A stretch of DNA of 25,128 bases from a virus, in the IMG/VR virus record IMGVR_UViG_3300032954_000066, positions 1-25,128 of that record; one strand, given 5' to 3'. The stretch's first letter is position 1, and each line of letters opens with the position of its first letter. A program made the position numbers and the translations under genes. The notes beneath the pieces are model-generated. The model saw only the letters and a program-made list of their open reading frames with translations. It ran no database searches and was not told the DNA's origin. Shown in pieces: positions 15,534 through 24,496 of the stretch.

Positions 15534-16841
15534 TTACAAGCCCGCTAGGACAGTGACTAGGTCGTCTTCTGCGCGGAGCCGGCTCACGTACTGGCTGATC
15601 CGTTGCTGTTCGACGGCACCGCCATCGGTGGGTGTCGCCCCGCCACCGCCGGCGGTCTGTTTCGTCAGGGTTGCTGCGTTACCCGAAACCGCCACAGACG
15701 CGGCCGTCGCGTTGAGCGTGTAGGCGTGGAGTCCGGAGAAGGTGACCGGGCTCCCGGTGATCACTACCGCACCAGCCGTCGCGGTAATGGCTACGGCTGG
15801 TGTGGCGGCGGTGCCGTTGATCGCGACAGATCCCGCCGACGCGGTGATCGCGACGTTCGGGGTCGCGTTGTCTCCGGTGATGGTGAAGGTGCCGGGTAGA
15901 GCGGAGAAGACCCTGTGGACTGCGAGCGTCGCCTGGAACCCCGTAGCAGCAACGCTGCCTGCGGTGGCGGTGATCTTCGGGGCCGGGGTGACTGGGCTCC
16001 CGTTGATTGTTACCGAACCAGCCGTCGCGGTGATCCCAACGTTGGGTGTCGCCGTGGCGCCTGTTACCGTCACAGACCCCGCGGTGGCGGAGAGTGTGCG
16101 GTGTATCGCGAACGTTGCCGCGGTCCCGTTGATCGCGGCAGACCCTGCTGTGGCGGTGATTCCGACGTTCGGTGTGGCCGACGCCCCGGTTACAGCGACC
16201 GAACCAGCGGTGGCGGAAAGCGTGTACGCGATCGTGAAGTTCTCGGTGACGAGCCTGTCGCCACCCTCGGTGTCGATGTAGTCGCCACCCTCGGTGAGGA
16301 TGTGCCCACCAGCAGCGACGGGGGTGCCACCGCCGAAGTTCGTCGCTCCCGGGCTGCTGCTGGCATCAACCTCTAGACCGATGTACCCGGACGAGTACGA
16401 CGCCTCCGTCCAGGTGTCTACCGAAGTCCCGTTGACGTAGAGAGTGTGCGTCGACCCGACGCTTGAGATCCCGACCTGGTCCCCCGACGAGAGCGCGGCA
16501 CCGAGGAAGGTGTCCTTCAGATAGGAGCTCTCGGTGTGCCAGGCGACATCGGTGCTGCCGATCCCGAACCTGATGAAGTAGCCCGTCCAGCCGGTACCGG
16601 GACTGTTGACGCGCCAGTAGAGGTTGAATGACTGCGTGCCGCCGACGGTGACGTAGACCTCGGTGGCCGAGAAGGTGCCTACATCCCAGTAGCCGGTCCC
16701 GTACCCCCCGTTGGCGAAGATGCTGGTGCCGTCACTCTTGAGATGGTTGGGGAGCGACGGGTCGACGTTCAGCCCCATGTCCGTGACGGGATCTTGGGTT
16801 AGTGCTCCTGAGACTAGGACGGAGGTGGTTGGGAAGCTCAC
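15534..16841 (-). CDS. LamG-like virion protein with nine C-terminal repeats
   Basis: This 435-residue protein has two parts. Residues 1-175 form a concanavalin/LamG-like beta domain, with GYWDVGTFSATEVYVTVGG and SYSSGYIGLEVDAS, clearly related to the 194-residue tail protein at 7430-8014. A linker with ILTEGGDYIDTEGGDRLVTE leads to nine beta-hairpin-like repeats at residues 206-394. The C-terminus returns to a charged helix (QQRISQYVSRLRAEDDLV). The GTG start has a GGGG-rich site. It is likely a virion surface protein, perhaps sugar-binding, and it is encoded in an unusual place between portal and protease. No enzymatic motif is visible. Confidence 0.7.
   Translation of the reverse strand: MSFPTTSVLVSGALTQDPVTDMGLNVDPSLPNHLKSDGTSIFANGGYGTGYWDVGTFSATEVYVTVGGTQSFNLYWRVNSPGTGWTGYFIRFGIGSTDVAWHTESSYLKDTFLGAALSSGDQVGISSVGSTHTLYVNGTSVDTWTEASYSSGYIGLEVDASSSPGATNFGGGTPVAAGGHILTEGGDYIDTEGGDRLVTENFTIAYTLSATAGSVAVTGASATPNVGITATAGSAAINGTAATFAIHRTLSATAGSVTVTGATATPNVGITATAGSVTINGSPVTPAPKITATAGSVAATGFQATLAVHRVFSALPGTFTITGDNATPNVAITASAGSVAINGTAATPAVAITATAGAVVITGSPVTFSGLHAYTLNATAASVAVSGNAATLTKQTAGGGGATPTDGGAVEQQRISQYVSRLRAEDDLVTVLAGL
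15660..16226 (-). repeat. Nine tandem protein repeats of about 20 codons
   Basis: Each unit follows the pattern ITATAGSVxxxGxxATPxxx, for example LSATAGSVAVTGASATPNVG and ITATAGSVAINGTAATPAVA. Units differ by substitutions and some have two or three added residues. The DNA repeats are less similar than the protein repeats, which suggests old duplication under selection rather than recent expansion. Confidence 0.85.
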
Positions 16842-16850
16842 GGCTTACCC

Positions 16851-17612
16851 CTACCCGGCGACGGCGACTTGTGCAGCCTCCATCGCAGTTCGCGTTTCTT
16901 CCCGTACCGGGCCGATCCGACCCTCAAGCAGATCGTCCGGGTCGATGTTCCAGCTCGTCAACACACCCATCATCTGTACGACCTTCTTCGGGACGGGTTC
17001 GGTGTAGATGTGCCACAGGTAGTCGCCGCCGTCGCCGATCGTCTGCTTGTACTCGTGGAACGTCTGGAACTTGAGCCCGTACTTGGCGATGTTCCGCGAC
17101 AGGGTGTAGTCGTCGATCAGGTGGCCCGGGTCCATCACGCCGCTCGCGGTCTCGCAGTGGGCGAGCGAGATGTTCTCGAGCGCCTCCTCATAGGTGAGGT
17201 CGTCGAGCGGCTTCCAGAGGTCGATACACCAGTCCGAGGCGATCGTGAACCAGTTACATGACCCGATATGCCGTCCGTCGCGACGGAAATACCGGTCGTA
17301 CCGCCAGCGGTTGCCGGCGATGTCACGGCCGTTGTGCATCACCGTGCCCTTGGACAGGTGGTCGGTCAGGTCGTACATGTCCGGGTGCACGAGCGCGTCC
17401 GAGTCGATGTAGATGTTCCAGTCGTTCCTGGCGCCGCGCTCATGGATCTGAAGCTTCTCGTAGACGACCGGCCAGTCCGGGTACCAGCGCTCGTCGATGA
17501 CCTGGAAGTCGGCGTCGATCTTGTCGGCGTAGTGACGCAACAACGGGTACGTCCACGCGCAGAGTTCGGGGGCGTAGTCGTCGATGTTGAGAGTCCAGAC
17601 GGTCTTCCTCAT
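16851..17612 (-). CDS. Glycosyltransferase, GT-A-like
   Basis: This 253-residue protein looks like a nucleotide-sugar glycosyltransferase. It starts MRKTVWTLNIDDYAPELCAW, followed by helix-strand alternation and a DWNIYIDSDALVHPDMYD segment whose Asp-Ser-Asp (residues 70-72) matches the metal-binding DxD motif. Later features include SCNWFTIASDWCIDLW and DPGHLIDDYTLSRNIAKYG, the latter with acidic residues that could serve catalysis. The ATG overlaps the stop of the polyglycine fibre gene (ATGA), so the two are coupled. A natural idea is that it glycosylates that fibre or a host glycan; no acceptor can be named from sequence. Confidence 0.75.
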   Translation of the reverse strand: MRKTVWTLNIDDYAPELCAWTYPLLRHYADKIDADFQVIDERWYPDWPVVYEKLQIHERGARNDWNIYIDSDALVHPDMYDLTDHLSKGTVMHNGRDIAGNRWRYDRYFRRDGRHIGSCNWFTIASDWCIDLWKPLDDLTYEEALENISLAHCETASGVMDPGHLIDDYTLSRNIAKYGLKFQTFHEYKQTIGDGGDYLWHIYTEPVPKKVVQMMGVLTSWNIDPDDLLEGRIGPVREETRTAMEAAQVAVAG

Positions 17613-18430
17613 CACTGGAATTCGTAGACGACGATGACGCCCTGGGCGCCTGCTGCTGCCGCGCTTGTGGCGTTGTTGTTGGAGCCGCTGCCGCCTCCGC
17701 CGCCGCCGTAGTTGCCTCCGGCGGTTGCGGCGTTCGCGCTTCCGCCTCCGCCCTGGCCGCCGCCGCCACCTCTTGCGGCAACGCCGCCGCCTCCGCCTGA
17801 TACGAGGCCCAAGACTGCTGCGTTGTTGCCGGCCTTCCAGCCGCCCTCTCCGTCGGCGCCGCGCATCAGCGCGATCCCAGTGTTCGGAGTTCCACCCGAG
17901 CCGCCAGCCGCGAACCCCGAAGCTGCGCCCGTCGCGTTGTTGAATCCGCCGCCGACACCGCCGCCGGCGTTCGCGTAGAAGCAGTTGTTGGAGGAGTTGC
18001 CGAAGATGGTGTTGCCGCCGTTGCCGCCGACCGTGTTGGCTGCCCCCACCGTGCCCCCGGTGCCGCACGAGTAGTAGTAGGTGCCGCCGATCGCGTTGTT
18101 GAAGTACCGGACGCACGCGCCGCCGCCGCCGCCGCCGCCGCAGCCTTTGTTGTTCGTGGACGCGGCACCCGGGGTGTTGCCGCCCGCACCCCCGCCACCA
18201 ATACACTCGACGAGGAACGAAGCCGTGCCCGCTGTGGGAGTGTAGGTCTGGTTCGCTGACGTGGAGGTCAACACCTGGACGTTCAACAGGCCCGGGAAGT
18301 TCGCTGCGACATAGGTGCCGAGCTGAGAAGCCGTGACACCGCGGGTTGTCCCGGACTGGTCGGCGGCCAGGATGTCGGTGCCTGCGGCCGAGGATGCGCT
18401 GGGGAGCGCCGAGATTTTGACGTCAGCCAT
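17612..18430 (-). CDS. Glycine-rich tail fibre or adhesin-like protein
   Basis: This 272-residue protein starts MADVKISALPSASSAAGTD, an N-terminus common in phage tail fibres, and has a short folded part to about residue 80 (VQVLTSTSANQTYTPTAG, ASFLVECIGGGG). The remainder is dominated by glycine runs separated by Asn- and Ala-rich stretches (GCGGGGGGGACVRYFNNAIG, SGGGGGVAARGGGGGQGGGG) and ends GAQGVIVVYEFQ. Such composition is known in phage adhesins that form polyglycine sandwich domains, as in the T4-like S16 gp38 tip, where variable loops bind the receptor. A strong AGGAGG site precedes the ATG. The role as receptor binder is inferred from composition. Confidence 0.75.
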   Translation of the reverse strand: MADVKISALPSASSAAGTDILAADQSGTTRGVTASQLGTYVAANFPGLLNVQVLTSTSANQTYTPTAGTASFLVECIGGGGAGGNTPGAASTNNKGCGGGGGGGACVRYFNNAIGGTYYYSCGTGGTVGAANTVGGNGGNTIFGNSSNNCFYANAGGGVGGGFNNATGAASGFAAGGSGGTPNTGIALMRGADGEGGWKAGNNAAVLGLVSGGGGGVAARGGGGGQGGGGSANAATAGGNYGGGGGGSGSNNNATSAAAAGAQGVIVVYEFQ

Positions 18431-19028: not shown

Positions 19029-20693
19029 TTACTGCTCCTTCCTTTGGCGGCGAACACGGGTGATGAAGCCGCGCTTGTCGCGTTCGACTTCCATGTCTCC
19101 CTGCTCCGGAACGTTCACGTGGATGTCCGGCATCTGCTGCTCCGGCACGTTCACCTGGACCGGGGTGGGTTCGACGTTCACCGTCACCTGTGGTGCGGGC
19201 ACATGAACCTCCGGGGTCGGCAGCGTCGTCTCCGGAACATGCACGTTCACGATCGGCGGCACAGCCAACCTCTCAAGGGCGTCTTCGATCTGTTCGTCGC
19301 GGCGCATGAACGCCTCCGTCAGCGACGACCCGTCCATCCGGATCTCGTTCGGCACATGCACATGCACATCCGGGACACGTGCCGCCTGGATGTCGTCCGG
19401 GGTGTCCTTGGGCGCCTGCAACGGCGGGCCTGCATGCCCACTGGGGGCTGGCGGGGTTGCGTTCGGTGCTCCACCAACCGGGGTGATCTGCGGAATCTTG
19501 CCCGCACCATCCGGGAGTGGCGGGTAGCCCTTGATGTTGCGGGCCTCGTCGGGGAGCAGGATGCCTGCTTGTACGTCTGACACCAGGATCGTCGCCTCCG
19601 TGAGGTTGTCGCCGCGGACGAAGTCGTCGGTGTTGAACTTCGGGTAGATCCCCATCGACCCGACCACGTTCGACTGCAACCGTCCCATGAACCCGAACAG
19701 CTGCTCGTCCGCCTTCAAAGCCTCTTCGATGCGTTTCAGTTCGGGGCCGAGCCCGAACCGGAGCCACTCCATCAGGTCCTGTTCGAGGTTCGGCGTACCC
19801 TTCTGCTGGACGCTGACCCCGAGGAGGTTGGCGGGGACGCCCATGATCTGGGAGGCGTCCTGGGCGGTCAACACTTTCATCTCGACGAACTCGGCGTCCG
19901 CCGGCGTCAACCCGATCGGCTTGATCTCGGCGCCACCACCCATCACCAGGGTGGTTTCGCCCTCGGTCCCCTCATAGTTCGCGCGGTACGCTTCGCGCCA
20001 CTGGTCGGCCTGATCCTTGGAGATCCCCGCGGGGAACGTGACCGCCAACTGGCCTGCGACCCCTCTGCGCCACATGCGGGCTTCGTGGCGTTGCCGTCCG
20101 ACGGGGCCGGCCATCGCATCTCGGAACTGCTCCACCGGCGACGGCGCCAACAACTGTCCGCCCTGGCCGTGGCCGCGGATATGCAGGATCGTCGTGTTTG
20201 TCAGGCCGGGATAGTCGCCCGGGCCTTTCCCGGTCGGGTCGACATAGCCGGGGGCGACCTTCACCGAATAGGTGCCGTCGTTCTTTGGTGTCACCTGGTC
20301 CGGGTGGAGCGCCCACCACTCCACGATCCTCGACCCGGACGTGTTCTTCCAGATGAACGCGTTCCCGCGGTACGCCAACGATTCTTCGACAGTCTCCCAG
20401 AAATCGAACCGGGTTTGGCAGTCGTTGGGGCTGTTGTCGAACAGTTTGTCCTGCCAGCACGTCTCGACCTTGACCCGGTCCGGCCCCATGCCTTTCCAGA
20501 CGCCGAGGTCGAGGTTCGCGACGGCTTCGGCGCGGATCCTGGCGGCCCGCGCAATGGCGGGGACGCCGCGCATTTCGCGTTCGCCGAACCCGGACTGGAG
20601 CGTGCGAAGCTGGTTGTACCCCCACCGGACCATGTCGGTGAGGGCAAACGAGTAGAGTTCGACCTCGCGGCCGCCTTTTTCGCGAACAACCAA
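19029..20693 (-). CDS. Portal protein, HK97 type, with an extended C-terminal stalk
   Basis: This 554-residue protein forms the ring through which DNA enters the head. Typical portal segments are RGVPAIARAARIRAEAVANL, TVEESLAYRGNAFIWKN, WWALHPDQVTPKNDG, TTILHIRGHGQGGQL, LTPADAEFVEMKVLTAQDAS and IMGVPANLLGV. After residue 400 it becomes Pro-rich, and residues about 438-535 form a Val-X-Val-Pro repeat stalk before a basic end (DKRGFITRVRRQRKEQ). The TTG start has GAGGTGAT upstream and lies one base past the previous stop. Family members usually end near residue 400-450, so the stalk is extra. Confidence 0.9.
   Translation of the reverse strand: MVVREKGGREVELYSFALTDMVRWGYNQLRTLQSGFGEREMRGVPAIARAARIRAEAVANLDLGVWKGMGPDRVKVETCWQDKLFDNSPNDCQTRFDFWETVEESLAYRGNAFIWKNTSGSRIVEWWALHPDQVTPKNDGTYSVKVAPGYVDPTGKGPGDYPGLTNTTILHIRGHGQGGQLLAPSPVEQFRDAMAGPVGRQRHEARMWRRGVAGQLAVTFPAGISKDQADQWREAYRANYEGTEGETTLVMGGGAEIKPIGLTPADAEFVEMKVLTAQDASQIMGVPANLLGVSVQQKGTPNLEQDLMEWLRFGLGPELKRIEEALKADEQLFGFMGRLQSNVVGSMGIYPKFNTDDFVRGDNLTEATILVSDVQAGILLPDEARNIKGYPPLPDGAGKIPQITPVGGAPNATPPAPSGHAGPPLQAPKDTPDDIQAARVPDVHVHVPNEIRMDGSSLTEAFMRRDEQIEDALERLAVPPIVNVHVPETTLPTPEVHVPAPQVTVNVEPTPVQVNVPEQQMPDIHVNVPEQGDMEVERDKRGFITRVRRQRKEQ
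19090..19380 (-). repeat. Val-X-Val-Pro repeat stalk of the portal
   Basis: Short degenerate units recur: PDVHVHVPNE, PIVNVHVPETTLPTPEVHVP, PQVTVNVEPTPVQVNVPEQQ and PDIHVNVPEQ. Alternating beta residues with regular prolines suggest a trimeric or extended beta stalk. A final ERDKRGFITRV segment resembles the end motif of similar stalks in other phage proteins. Confidence 0.75.
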
Positions 20694-20694
20694 G

Positions 20695-20913
20695 CTAGAT
20701 CACCTCGTAGAAAGCGACACGATCCAGGGGGACGACCAGGAGCCTGGATTCGAGGATGGTTGGCTTGCCGCCCGCCGCAACAGCCTCCGAAATCAGTTCA
20801 GGAACACCCACCGCGAGTTCGCGGTGGCGTCTAGACAACAACAGGCCTTCCACTGAGGGTAGGTGGGGGTCTGTGAGGTGGATCCGGACGCGTTTAGCCT
20901 GCCGCAGCCGCAC
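20695..20913 (-). CDS. Small conserved protein before the portal
   Basis: This 72-residue protein starts at a GTG that lies inside the last 20 bases of the glycosyltransferase gene. It has strands KRVRIHLTDPHLPSVEGLLL and RLLVVPLDRVAFYEVI around a less ordered middle. Small beta proteins of this form (a coordinate strand pair, then a VPLDRVxFxEV ending) are common between terminase and portal genes in actinobacteriophages and are unnamed. The ending may resemble a small Sm-like barrel. Its last codons carry the ribosome site for the portal. Function is unknown. Confidence 0.7.
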   Translation of the reverse strand: MRLRQAKRVRIHLTDPHLPSVEGLLLSRRHRELAVGVPELISEAVAAGGKPTILESRLLVVPLDRVAFYEVI

Positions 20914-21709
20914 GTTCGGCCTCCGCCGCTTCGTCTTCGGCCTTGTACAGTTCTGTCACGTCCTCGATCGCCGCGTCATCCCGGGCTGCGTAGTAGCGTT
21001 TCGCAGCCTCCTGCCGCAACAGCGGACGCGCTCTGTTCCTGTGGACAACAACCAGCGAGCCGCGAAGGTCAAGACACGGGTCGGCGATCCGGCCCTTGTA
21101 GTCGGGGGCGACATGGCCCTTCGTCCCGAACCCCTTCACCCAGCGTTTCTTCCCGCCGTAGGTCCCGCTGATGGTGTAGTGGGCTGGCCCGTACTGGAGG
21201 TCTGGTGTCCACCGGTAGATGTCGCGGATCTCGTCGCGCCACTCCGTCTCGATCTGAGACTGGATCGCCGCCGCCGCAAACTCCGGCTGCGCCAACGGGT
21301 CCTGCTGGTCGACCAATGTGTAGGTGGCGACATTCAGGTCGGTCACCTCGAGCATCCCCCGCACGGTCGGCGGGTCACAGTTCGTGACGTGATAGTCACC
21401 ATCAGCGACCATCACCCAGTCCGGGTCATGGGCCGCCGCCAACTTCAGGGTCATGTTGCGTTTGTGGACTTCGTTGCCGTCCCACAAGAAGTTTGGCCGG
21501 TGGATCGTGCAGCCGATCCCGGCCGCTTCGGCGGTCTGCATGATCGCCTCCGCCTGCTCCGGATGCGACCTTGGTTTGCCCTGCGGAAAGAACGCGTAGG
21601 CGCCGTCAACAGCAACAACATGGTCGACCATCCTCCCGTAACCCGCCACAACCGTCGCGAGCCAGGCTGGCGACTCCTCATACCACGACAACAACAGGAC
21701 AAGATTCAT
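20894..21709 (-). CDS. Glycosyltransferase-like protein, GT-A fold
   Basis: This 271-residue protein starts MNLVLLLSWYEESPAWLATV and continues with VDHVVAVDGAY, as in family 2 glycosyltransferases. A second conserved segment, DPDWVMVADGDYHVTN, holds an Asp-Gly-Asp (residues 103-105) at the place of the metal-binding DxD motif. Further on are YRWTPDLQYGPAHYTISGTY and GFGTKGHVAPDYKGR, then a helical, Ala/Glu-rich end. The ATG overlaps the stop of the 51-residue gene (ATGA). It is probably a sugar transferase working with the ATP-grasp ligase encoded two genes upstream. The donor and acceptor are unknown. Confidence 0.75.
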   Translation of the reverse strand: MNLVLLLSWYEESPAWLATVVAGYGRMVDHVVAVDGAYAFFPQGKPRSHPEQAEAIMQTAEAAGIGCTIHRPNFLWDGNEVHKRNMTLKLAAAHDPDWVMVADGDYHVTNCDPPTVRGMLEVTDLNVATYTLVDQQDPLAQPEFAAAAIQSQIETEWRDEIRDIYRWTPDLQYGPAHYTISGTYGGKKRWVKGFGTKGHVAPDYKGRIADPCLDLRGSLVVVHRNRARPLLRQEAAKRYYAARDDAAIEDVTELYKAEDEAAEAERAAAAG

Positions 21710-21861
21710 TTCGGGTTCGCCCTGATGTGCAGCTCGCCAAGCCGCAACAACTCCTGCTGCAACTGTTCAGCGGTCTGGTGGAGGGCTTGGAGGATCGAGT
21801 TGCATTCGCACTGGTGCGAGTAGAGCTCGAACCCGGCGTCGTCTTCTACGGTGACTCTCAT
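21706..21861 (-). CDS. 51-residue helical protein between ATP-grasp and glycosyltransferase genes
   Basis: This small gene is joined at both ends by ATGA overlaps: its ATG overlaps the ATP-grasp stop and its TGA overlaps the glycosyltransferase start. It reads MRVTVEDDAGFELYSHQCEC, then a predicted amphipathic helix (SILQALHQTAEQLQQELLRL), and ends GELHIRANPK. The Cys-Glu-Cys pair and helix suggest a small partner or adaptor, possibly a coiled-coil dimer. It resembles no family I know. A substrate role for the ATP-grasp enzyme is conceivable but there is no core-peptide pattern to support it. Confidence 0.7.
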   Translation of the reverse strand: MRVTVEDDAGFELYSHQCECNSILQALHQTAEQLQQELLRLGELHIRANPK

Positions 21862-22823
21862 ACGAACACCGCGGCGCAGTCGATGTGGCGTCTCAACTCG
21901 AGTCCTTCCGGTAGCGCGTCACGTTGCGGAGCCTCCACCGTCTCGCCGACCGCCAGCCTGGCGTGAATGTCAGCGAAATTCACACTGTGGAGTGCCCACA
22001 ACCCCGTCGTTGTGCCGCCCCGGCCGGCGTTGATCTCTGTCACCACAGGAGTGTGGTGGCCGGATTCCCTCAGGTCGACCCCGTAGACACCGTTCGGCTT
22101 CTCGTCAACCGCCGCGACAGCCTCCTCGGCTGTCTGGTTGACAAGCGAGTCGTGGACGACCTGAGCCCTGGCCGGTGTCCCAGTGAGGCCGGATGGTGCG
22201 AGGTTCGGGTAGATGTACTCGAGCCGCACCCTCGCGAACGACGTCACGAGCTCGCCGTCCTTGTAGATCCCCGTCCAGGCATAGTCGCGGCCGGGCAGGT
22301 ACTCCTCGGCGATCCACTCCCACTCCATGCCCCTGGTTTCCCAGTAGCGGATCCAGTGGAACGCCGTCCTCAGGTCTTCGACGAGAGTCGCGCCCTTCGC
22401 GCCAGCCCCAATAGTCACGCGAAGCCAGAACGGGAGCCCGAACTTGTCCTTCGCCTGGTGGAGATGGTCGGGTAGCGGGTCTGTGATGAGGATGGCGCCG
22501 CTGCGGCAGCCTGCCTGCTCCAGTATCCGGATGGTGTCGAGCTTGTGCTGGCAGCGGCTAACAACTCTGAGGTCCGGGAGAAGCGTCGCGGGCAGGTAGG
22601 CGCCCACGTTCTTCCGCAACACAAGATCCCGGACAAGCGAATCGGGGACAGCATGGACGACGTCCGGCCCGAAAATCCCCGGGTCTTCCATCGTGTACGG
22701 CGCAGCCCAGACCAGGTGGGTTGGGTCGTCGTCTTCGGCGAACACTTCGTGGCCGGCCTTGTGCAGGGCGCGGCACCAGTTGACACCGGCGGGTCCGCCG
22801 GCACCCAGAACACGCACTCGCAT
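21858..22823 (-). CDS. ATP-grasp ligase
   Basis: This 321-residue protein probably joins a carboxylate to an amine or similar nucleophile using ATP. Residues 1-40 form a Rossmann-like start with MRVRVLGAGGPAGVNWCRAL, as in carbamoyl-phosphate-synthase-like ATP-grasp proteins. The ATP-binding part includes PFWLRVTIGAGAKGATLVED (glycine-rich loop, about 131-150) and the adenine-side segment EWIAEEYLPGRDYAWTGIY. Metal ligands are probably Asp250 in NGVYGVDLR and Glu263/Asn265 in VVTEINAGRGG. A GGGAGGGAAACC ribosome site precedes the ATG. It lies directly after the terminase, which is unusual for an enzyme. Substrate unknown; the fold call is firm. Confidence 0.85.
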   Translation of the reverse strand: MRVRVLGAGGPAGVNWCRALHKAGHEVFAEDDDPTHLVWAAPYTMEDPGIFGPDVVHAVPDSLVRDLVLRKNVGAYLPATLLPDLRVVSRCQHKLDTIRILEQAGCRSGAILITDPLPDHLHQAKDKFGLPFWLRVTIGAGAKGATLVEDLRTAFHWIRYWETRGMEWEWIAEEYLPGRDYAWTGIYKDGELVTSFARVRLEYIYPNLAPSGLTGTPARAQVVHDSLVNQTAEEAVAAVDEKPNGVYGVDLRESGHHTPVVTEINAGRGGTTTGLWALHSVNFADIHARLAVGETVEAPQRDALPEGLELRRHIDCAAVFV

Positions 22824-22842: not shown

Positions 22843-24276
22843 CTACCAGTTACCTACCCAAACCTCCGCAGTCGCCTGCTCCAAACCCCAAAGAGCGAGC
22901 GTGCAGGCGACCAGGGGCGAAATGTCGGCGCTCGAGGGGTTTCTGGCCCACGCCCAAGCGTCTCCGAGCGGCCGTTTTTTCGCTCCGACCACCGCCGCCG
23001 ACAGAAGTGGGTCTCCGAGGTGGCGGATGGTGCCTTGAGAGACGGCGTCATACAGCATTCCGCACGCTTTGACGTGTTCCGGCGTCGAAACCGGCTCAAC
23101 CTGGACCCCGAAACGCTCCAAAGAAGGGATCAGCGACCCTGCCGGGCCCCTCGCGTCACAGATCACGCGCTGGCCTTGGCGTTCTGAGAGCCATTCTGCG
23201 ACCCAGCCAGTCCCGCGACGGTGTTCCGCCACCTCGACCTGTGCGAGGCCGTCAGAACGCTTCCCAGCGACGCACACGGACGCCCACGCGCGGTCCGGTG
23301 ACACGTCAAACGCGAAAACATGCTGCCCCGACACCTGTCCGTCAGGGTCAGCCAGTCTCTGCCAACTGTTGATGTTGATGACCGACCCCTCACCCTCAAG
23401 GTCGAACCAGTCACCAACCCCAAGTCTTTCGACGGCGAACGATCTGGGCTCCAGGGTGCGCTGCTCGTTCGCGATATGCGACATCGGAATCATCCGCGAA
23501 GGGTTCGCGGCCTTCCAAGACGCCGGATCCTTCGCGACCTCGTGCGGCACATCCTCGGGTTTCTCGTATTCGAGCGACCATTCGAAGTAGGCGAGCGACG
23601 GATCATCCGCCGCCAACCCCCGATCCCTGACCCTCGAGAGCACGCGGCCCTCTTCATGTACCAGCTGGTCGACCGCAGACCCCAAAAACCAGAGCTGCGG
23701 GTTCAAACTCCTCGAAACCACCGGGTAGATCGACCCCAACGACGCCTCAGGGAAGATCATCGCCTCGTCGAAGATCACACAGTCGACGCCGGCATACCCT
23801 CTACCGCCGCCCTTGGTTCGGGTTCGGAACCGGACACGCTGCCCAGACCTCAACTCGATCTGTTCTTTCCCGTTCGCGCGCCACACATGCTTCACCTCGC
23901 GCGCCAACCAATCCTGCGAATCGATCAAATCGATCAGCCGGCGAAACATCTCCAACGACGTGTCCGCCAGATGCGCCGTATAGATGATCAAGTTCTCGTC
24001 GAGAACGTAGAGGCCGGCCAGGATCCGGGCGATCGCGAGCTCCGACTTGCCGTTCTGGCGCGGGATCACCCCCGCCACCTCCGGCGCAGCCCACTTCCCG
24101 TCGCGCTCCAGCATCGACGACTCGAAAATCCACTGCTGCCACGGCTCAAGCTTGATCCCCGCAGCCGCGATCAGCTCCGAAGCAGCAACACCATCCGGGT
24201 GCGGCGAACCATCAGGAACCCACACCACCCGCGGCTCTTGCAAGCTTGGCCGCTCTGCGAGCGCGGATCTCGTCAA
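22843..24276 (-). CDS. Terminase large subunit
   Basis: This is the packaging motor and nuclease. With a TTG start at 24276 it has 477 residues; GGAGG lies nine bases upstream of that TTG, which decides this start over a longer TTG frame and a GTG at 24228. The ATPase shows a Walker A-like PRQNGKS (about residues 72-78), VDCVIFDEAM as Walker B (about 167-172), and a LIIYTAHLADTS segment. The nuclease shows VFAFDVSPDRAWAS, RVICDARGPAGS and SSADISPLVACTLALWG, each with a conserved Asp. The pattern is that of HK97/actinophage TerL proteins. It overlaps the small subunit gene by 65 bases. Confidence 0.92.
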   Translation of the reverse strand: MTRSALAERPSLQEPRVVWVPDGSPHPDGVAASELIAAAGIKLEPWQQWIFESSMLERDGKWAAPEVAGVIPRQNGKSELAIARILAGLYVLDENLIIYTAHLADTSLEMFRRLIDLIDSQDWLAREVKHVWRANGKEQIELRSGQRVRFRTRTKGGGRGYAGVDCVIFDEAMIFPEASLGSIYPVVSRSLNPQLWFLGSAVDQLVHEEGRVLSRVRDRGLAADDPSLAYFEWSLEYEKPEDVPHEVAKDPASWKAANPSRMIPMSHIANEQRTLEPRSFAVERLGVGDWFDLEGEGSVININSWQRLADPDGQVSGQHVFAFDVSPDRAWASVCVAGKRSDGLAQVEVAEHRRGTGWVAEWLSERQGQRVICDARGPAGSLIPSLERFGVQVEPVSTPEHVKACGMLYDAVSQGTIRHLGDPLLSAAVVGAKKRPLGDAWAWARNPSSADISPLVACTLALWGLEQATAEVWVGNW

Positions 24277-24496
24277 GAGGTGAATCCTCCAACTTCTCAG
24301 GCGGCAACTCGGCCACAAGCGCCTGCCGGATCGCCAACAGGCTGTTCCAACAGTTCGACAGCGCCGTCGGATGCGTCCCCGGATCGTCGCACGCCGCCGC
24401 CAACGACAAACACGCCGCCGCCAACAGCGAATCGCTCACACCAGGCTTCCGCTTCTCCCACTCCGCCAGATCACGCTCAACCGCCTCAGTCACCAT
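24212..24496 (-). CDS. Terminase small subunit-like protein
   Basis: This 94-residue protein starts at an ATG that overlaps the HNH stop by seven bases and has AGGAGG about a dozen bases upstream; a longer frame into the HNH gene is rejected. It is helical: TEAVERDLAEWEKRKPGV, SLLAAACLSLAAACDD, NSLLAIRQALVAELPPEK, and ends SPLDEIRARRAAKLARAAGG. The closing (S/D)PLDEIRARR segment is typical of small subunits next to actinobacteriophage terminases. It probably recognises the packaging site and recruits the large subunit. There is no visible DNA-binding motif, so the call relies on ending motif, size and place. Confidence 0.8.
   Translation of the reverse strand: MVTEAVERDLAEWEKRKPGVSDSLLAAACLSLAAACDDPGTHPTALSNCWNSLLAIRQALVAELPPEKLEDSPLDEIRARRAAKLARAAGGVGS

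Follow-up and report, generated by a model that had tools for sequence, protein, structure and literature searches.

Why would a phage carry an ATP-grasp ligase and a glycosyltransferase among the genes that build its virion, and do the two enzymes act together? The question is raised by a 25,128-nucleotide viral sequence (IMG/VR record IMGVR_UViG_3300032954_000066, positions 1 to 25,128; this whole stretch is called the window below), for which the first-pass annotation had proposed a joint system of three coupled genes between the terminase and portal genes. Analysis of the locus revealed that the late genes form an operon on the minus strand, in which an HNH gene, a 130-aa gene and the gene of the terminase large subunit TerL (22843..24318; phrog_9, E 1.4e-64) come first. 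These are followed by the gene of the 321-aa ATP-grasp ligase (21858..22823), a small CxC-containing ORF of 51 aa (21706..21861), the gene of the 271-aa glycosyltransferase (GT; 20894..21709) and a 72-aa gene, g72 (20695..20913), which lies directly before the portal gene (19029..20693; PF04860, E 6e-58). Further structural genes, a second putative GT gene, a protease gene, the major capsid gene and tail genes come after the portal gene. An ATGA overlap was found both at the junction of the ATP-grasp gene with the 51-aa ORF and at that of the 51-aa ORF with the GT gene. Coordinates and both junctions thus agree with the earlier description of three overlapping ORFs between terminase and portal, except that the 72-aa gene also separates the GT gene from the portal gene.

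The same three genes are present in a sister contig, L002 (IMGVR 3300032770_000054), with identities to the window of 97% for the ATP-grasp, 100% for the 51-aa ORF and 99.6% for the GT. Because nonsynonymous change between the two phages is rare (pN/pS of about 0.13 for the ATP-grasp and 0.02 for the GT), this comparison clearly points to purifying selection maintaining at least the ATP-grasp and GT genes in the pair. In L002, but not in the window, the 72-aa gene is separated from the portal gene by about 200 additional bases (L002 8127-8328) that contain a 68-aa ORF.

When queried alone, the 321-aa protein matched NCBIfam PRK12767 with an E-value of 4e-5, which falls short of the Pfam and NCBIfam cut-offs. 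A profile of 23 homologues matched the carbamoyl-phosphate-synthase-like structure 2pn1 (7.6e-9), as well as the carbamoyl-phosphate synthase large chain 1a9x and RimK/LysX and D-Ala-D-Ala ligase structures, and members of the alignment matched ATP-grasp_3 and PylC-like_N. Residues K93, W132, R134, G138, G140, D249, E262, N264 and R267 were invariant in the 23 homologues; these include the ATP/metal residues (K93, G138-x-G140, D249, E262 and N264), in line with the earlier claim that the glycine loop and the metal-binding residues are intact. The AlphaFold2 model, made from a two-sequence alignment only, had a pLDDT of 31.6. The profile matches and the invariant residues identify the protein, at the level of sequence, as an ATP-grasp ligase of the PRK12767 / PylC-like class with intact ATP/metal residues. 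Few substrates of PRK12767-like enzymes have been characterised, and the window enzyme is predicted to act on a sugar or amino-sugar, to which it likely joins an acyl group through an amide or comparable bond.

Direct searches found no relative of the window ATP-grasp in any phage record, and searches of viral contigs (by single sequence or motif) and of genome contigs returned the sister phage only. The family was reached only through a profile built with cellular relatives, which detected ATP-grasps in 30 viral loci. Homologues were found in 8 of 396 genomes from the phylum of a GT-carrying Mycolicibacterium, and cellular homologues shared up to about 45% identity with the window enzyme. Where their flanks were read, the cellular genes mostly lay in surface-glycan clusters, beside genes for HAD hydrolase, FdtA, DegT aminotransferase, flippase, sulfotransferase, oxidoreductase and WecB-like proteins. 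In the surface-glycan clusters of the actinobacterial genomes L109, L110 and L112, an HAD hydrolase gene adjoins the ATP-grasp gene or lies near it. The bacterial PRK12767-type surface-glycan enzymes are homologous to the window ATP-grasp, share its invariant residues and have a sugar-pathway context, and they are often paired with HAD hydrolases. The phage copies of the window clade, by contrast, make up a group of their own with full support in the tree; they have no HAD partner, and their coupling is with a single GT. Of the 51 proteins neighbouring viral ATP-grasps, the most numerous were sugar-related enzymes, namely Epimerase (8), GT2 (6), methyltransferase (5) and DegT (3) members. In another phage type (L133 2764-9041, and L134), an ATP-grasp relative adjoins a large portal-like gene, with glycosyltransferase-like and methyltransferase-like genes close by.

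The 271-aa protein was assigned to phrog_7009 (E 1e-32), and gp19 of phage Thibault is a homologue of it (35% identity, 86% coverage). It had no Pfam match alone, and 9 of the 34 members of its family alignment matched Glyco_tranf_2_4. The AlphaFold2 model built from these 34 sequences reached a pLDDT of 90.3 and gave 91 matches in the PDB at E<=0.001, with glycosyltransferases on top; the best structural matches were ThuS (Z 17.6), SunS (15.8), TarS (14.6) and WrtF (14.6). The two aspartates of the DGD motif (D103-G-D105) were invariant in the 34 homologues, so that the motif is intact as previously noted. Taken together, the model and the conserved residues characterise the protein as a GT2-like GT-A glycosyltransferase with an intact metal-binding DxD site.

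The glycocin S-glycosyltransferases SunS/ThuS are the closest solved fold (Z 17.6, rmsd 3.0 over 196 residues) at about 10% sequence identity, and they act on small peptides. A precursor role for the 51-aa protein was considered, in which the GT would glycosylate its Cys residues, as SunS does in glycocins, the ATP-grasp would add a further bond, and the modified peptide would be carried by the phage or released with it. The structural match, the CxC in the small protein and the exact ATGA coupling at both its ends are what such a role would call for. However, the peptide occurs in two sister phages only and both enzymes occur elsewhere without it; the phage GT has no accompanying conserved Cys peptide. 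Furthermore, a double glycine is missing from the 51-aa sequence, the scan of the window genes (several of which have no family match) revealed neither a transporter nor a peptidase, and the ThuS match is only modestly above that of other GT2 enzymes (Z 17.6 vs 14.6). We regard this reading as highly improbable.

The 51-aa ORF itself is probably translated, as suggested by its two exact overlaps, its GC3 of 0.81 and the fact that both substitutions between window and sister are synonymous (0 nonsynonymous, 2 synonymous). Taken by itself the open frame says little, since a 50-codon frame would stay open by chance with a probability of 0.38 at this composition. The first-pass annotation had treated the small protein as a fixed third member and raised the question of whether it always sits between the two enzymes. 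It was found in the window and L002 only and was absent from the other loci with the enzymes, where its place is taken by a methyltransferase gene of about 155 aa or is empty. The 51-aa protein is consequently a lineage-specific accessory and no shared component of the cassette, and for the same reason it is unlikely to be a common substrate of the enzymes. A methyltransferase remnant was also considered, and comparison of the sequences by eye gave no support for it.

The pair of enzymes, on the other hand, was found to recur. The order ATP-grasp-methyltransferase-GT-g72-portal was observed in L117, L118 and L121, with TerL upstream in L118 and L121 and the contig end at that point in L117. 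L129 and L138 have ATP-grasp-GT-g72-portal, with a TerL-like gene upstream in L129, and L144 has TerL-ATP-grasp-...-GT17-epimerase (SDR)-GT-g72-portal. L130 contains oxidoreductase-ATP-grasp-GT, and in L119 and L120 the ATP-grasp and methyltransferase genes lie downstream of the capsid gene. In a maximum-likelihood tree, the window ATP-grasp was one of ten rows that made up a phage clade with full support, the ATP-grasps of L129/L138/L130 and of L144 fell outside this clade, and that of L144 grouped with enzymes from cellular glycan clusters. A tree constrained to hold the TerL-portal ATP-grasps in one clade was rejected with a p-AU of 4.8e-79, a value that is indicative, as the slot grouping was made after the loci had been seen; the separation of the lineages rests on well-supported branches. 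By this phylogeny, at least three separate ATP-grasp lineages have entered the slot TerL-[...]-GT-g72-portal. The best argument for joint action of the two enzymes is that different ATP-grasps were recruited to the same GT. As for the proposed three-gene system, the ATP-grasp/GT pair is real, recurrent in phage late operons and apparently linked, and the 51-aa protein drops out.

The opposite reading takes the two genes as independent morons without a joint function, which share a permissive TerL-portal insertion site. The GT family was detected in 49 Omegavirus (cluster J) records and 144 viral contigs, and most loci carrying the GT lack the ATP-grasp. Out of the 144 contigs, 80 GT loci were fetched. 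Among the loci in which it was recovered, over 80 in all, the GT gene immediately preceded the portal gene in 29, followed the major capsid gene in 43 and was elsewhere or unplaceable in 12; it was unrecovered in 5 loci. These counts include near-copies and a few genome loci. Genes were called with a simple caller (plus strand, GC-position score), so that small ORF calls are approximate in high-GC loci. The frequent occurrence of the GT alone, together with the many different genes that occupy the site in relatives, speaks for independent insertion. Against it stand the gene overlaps that couple ATP-grasp and GT, the placement of at least three separate ATP-grasp lineages with this GT, and the nature of the other cargo, which is largely sugar chemistry and would not be expected of a merely permissive site. 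We therefore consider independent insertion improbable. The question of whether the homologues occur mostly apart has a divided answer, as the GT mostly stands without an ATP-grasp, yet ATP-grasps were recruited beside it in at least three lineages.

In relatives, the slot between TerL and portal contains an NAD-dependent epimerase gene (L086), genes for a methyltransferase, a WbqC-like protein and a GT (L081), a GT and a GT17-like gene (L084), or GT, GT17 and epimerase genes (L061). The repeated recruitment of varied tailoring enzymes beside one conserved GT suggests that the slot holds an exchangeable sugar-tailoring module that decorates glycans. The 72-aa gene was rejected as a member of the cassette, since in L016, L020, L027 and L087 a profile detected the order TerL-g72-portal with no intervening GT, which assigns g72 to the phage core. 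Its family has the motif RVRxHL...SxEG...IPxxxVxFxEV and neither a Pfam nor a PHROG match, which suggests a core head gene that has no name so far. The second putative GT of the window (16851..17627, minus strand; Pfam Glyco_transf_21, E 0.11) contains a DSD motif within IYIDSDALV and is preceded by a glycine-rich tail-fibre-like gene. A homologue with 53% identity lies two genes after the ATP-grasp in L139, and another with 37% occurs in the marine virus AG-345-E08; the protein is possibly another enzyme of the same decoration pathway. Between this gene and the protease gene, the window encodes on the minus strand (15534-16841) a 435-aa protein with repeated ITATAGSVAVTG-like units and no PHROG match.

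On balance we favour, with some reserve, a late-expressed cassette that decorates glycans, likeliest those of virion proteins, with the ATP-grasp attaching a group to a sugar by an amide link. For its donor, acceptor and target we infer the following scheme. From its insertion point after TerL and before g72 and portal, the cassette would be expressed late in infection. The GT would transfer a sugar, probably from a host nucleotide-sugar, to a virion protein, which may be a capsid, portal-proximal or tail protein, and the ATP-grasp would spend ATP to join a carboxylate, from an amino acid or a small acid, to an amine of the sugar or its precursor. The surface glycan would thereby bear an amide-linked group, and the methyltransferase, epimerase, GT17 or WbqC-like genes of relatives would play comparable decorating roles. 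A virion target is suggested by the position of the genes and by the capsid and tail-tube glycosylation reported in other mycobacteriophages; placement beside virion genes could instead reflect a tolerant insertion site rather than mark a virion target.

The main rival to a virion target is a host-surface one. The cassette would then alter a cell-wall or capsule sugar of the host, late in infection or during lysogeny, so that receptors are changed and superinfection is blocked. Phage-encoded GTs that alter the O-antigen are known, the cellular ATP-grasp homologues lie in surface-polysaccharide clusters, and the GT fold resembles the wall-teichoic-acid enzymes TarS/TarP/RmlT. This is countered by the location of the GT genes in the structural operon, where they use one or the other of two sites, each adjoining virion genes; the window genes scanned included no recognisable flippase or polymerase. 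A host-surface target is accordingly a minority reading, with perhaps a modest chance of being right. Phage DNA is a third conceivable target, which the two enzymes would hypermodify for protection against restriction. Sugar-bearing DNA bases are known in phages, for example in Shewanella phage Thanatos (PMC12838424). However, none of the loci read had replication or nucleotide genes close to either enzyme gene, and the GT-A fold best matches GTs acting on proteins and polysaccharides, which leaves DNA hypermodification a very slim prospect.

With respect to known systems, glycosyltransferase and methyltransferase genes that interrupt the structural genes of cluster J (Omegavirus) phages were described in 2013, with their target left open (PMC3706429). 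These phages, including Thibault with its gp19, have a GT of the same family as that of the window, and GT and methyltransferase genes lie within their virion operon (PMC3706429). They differ in that their genes lie between the capsid and head-tail connector genes, whereas the window uses the TerL-portal slot, and in that a relative of the window ATP-grasp was found in no phage record. In Che8, Corndog and Myrna, phage-encoded GTs are reported to glycosylate capsid and tail-tube proteins (Freeman 2023, as cited in PMC12363180). The Che8 gp110 and Corndog gp38 enzymes resemble the proposed cassette in being phage-encoded GTs that place sugars on capsid and tail-tube proteins (PMC12363180). As far as compared by sequence, Che8 gp110 does not clearly belong to the family of the window GT, whose profile gave it a score of only 6 bits (E 0.003 among 7 sequences); the Che8 GT genes lie at the genome end, and no ATP-grasp is annotated in the stretch of Che8 read. 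No description of an ATP-grasp paired with phage glycosylation was found in the literature searched, which consisted mainly of papers outside subscription. The initial statement that no named phage system has this layout therefore stands for that literature, although interruptions by GT and methyltransferase genes have been known since 2013 (PMC3706429). Within the literature searched, the ATP-grasp version, the TerL-portal slot and the repeated recruitment were not encountered, and the GT/methyltransferase insertions of cluster J are known.

Virion glycans reportedly protect phages against antibodies (work cited in PMC12363180), and an amide-linked decoration of virion glycans would be a type of modification without earlier description. 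It is conceivable, though on present evidence we hold it only tentatively, that ATP-grasp ligases from bacteria were taken up by several phage lineages on separate occasions and that the virion glycans of these phages bear amide-linked aminoacyl or similar groups. For the cluster J phages it is a long-standing question whether sugar enzymes encoded in structural operons have the virion or the host as their target (PMC3706429), and the cultured Omegavirus relatives of the GT make this question of target directly testable.
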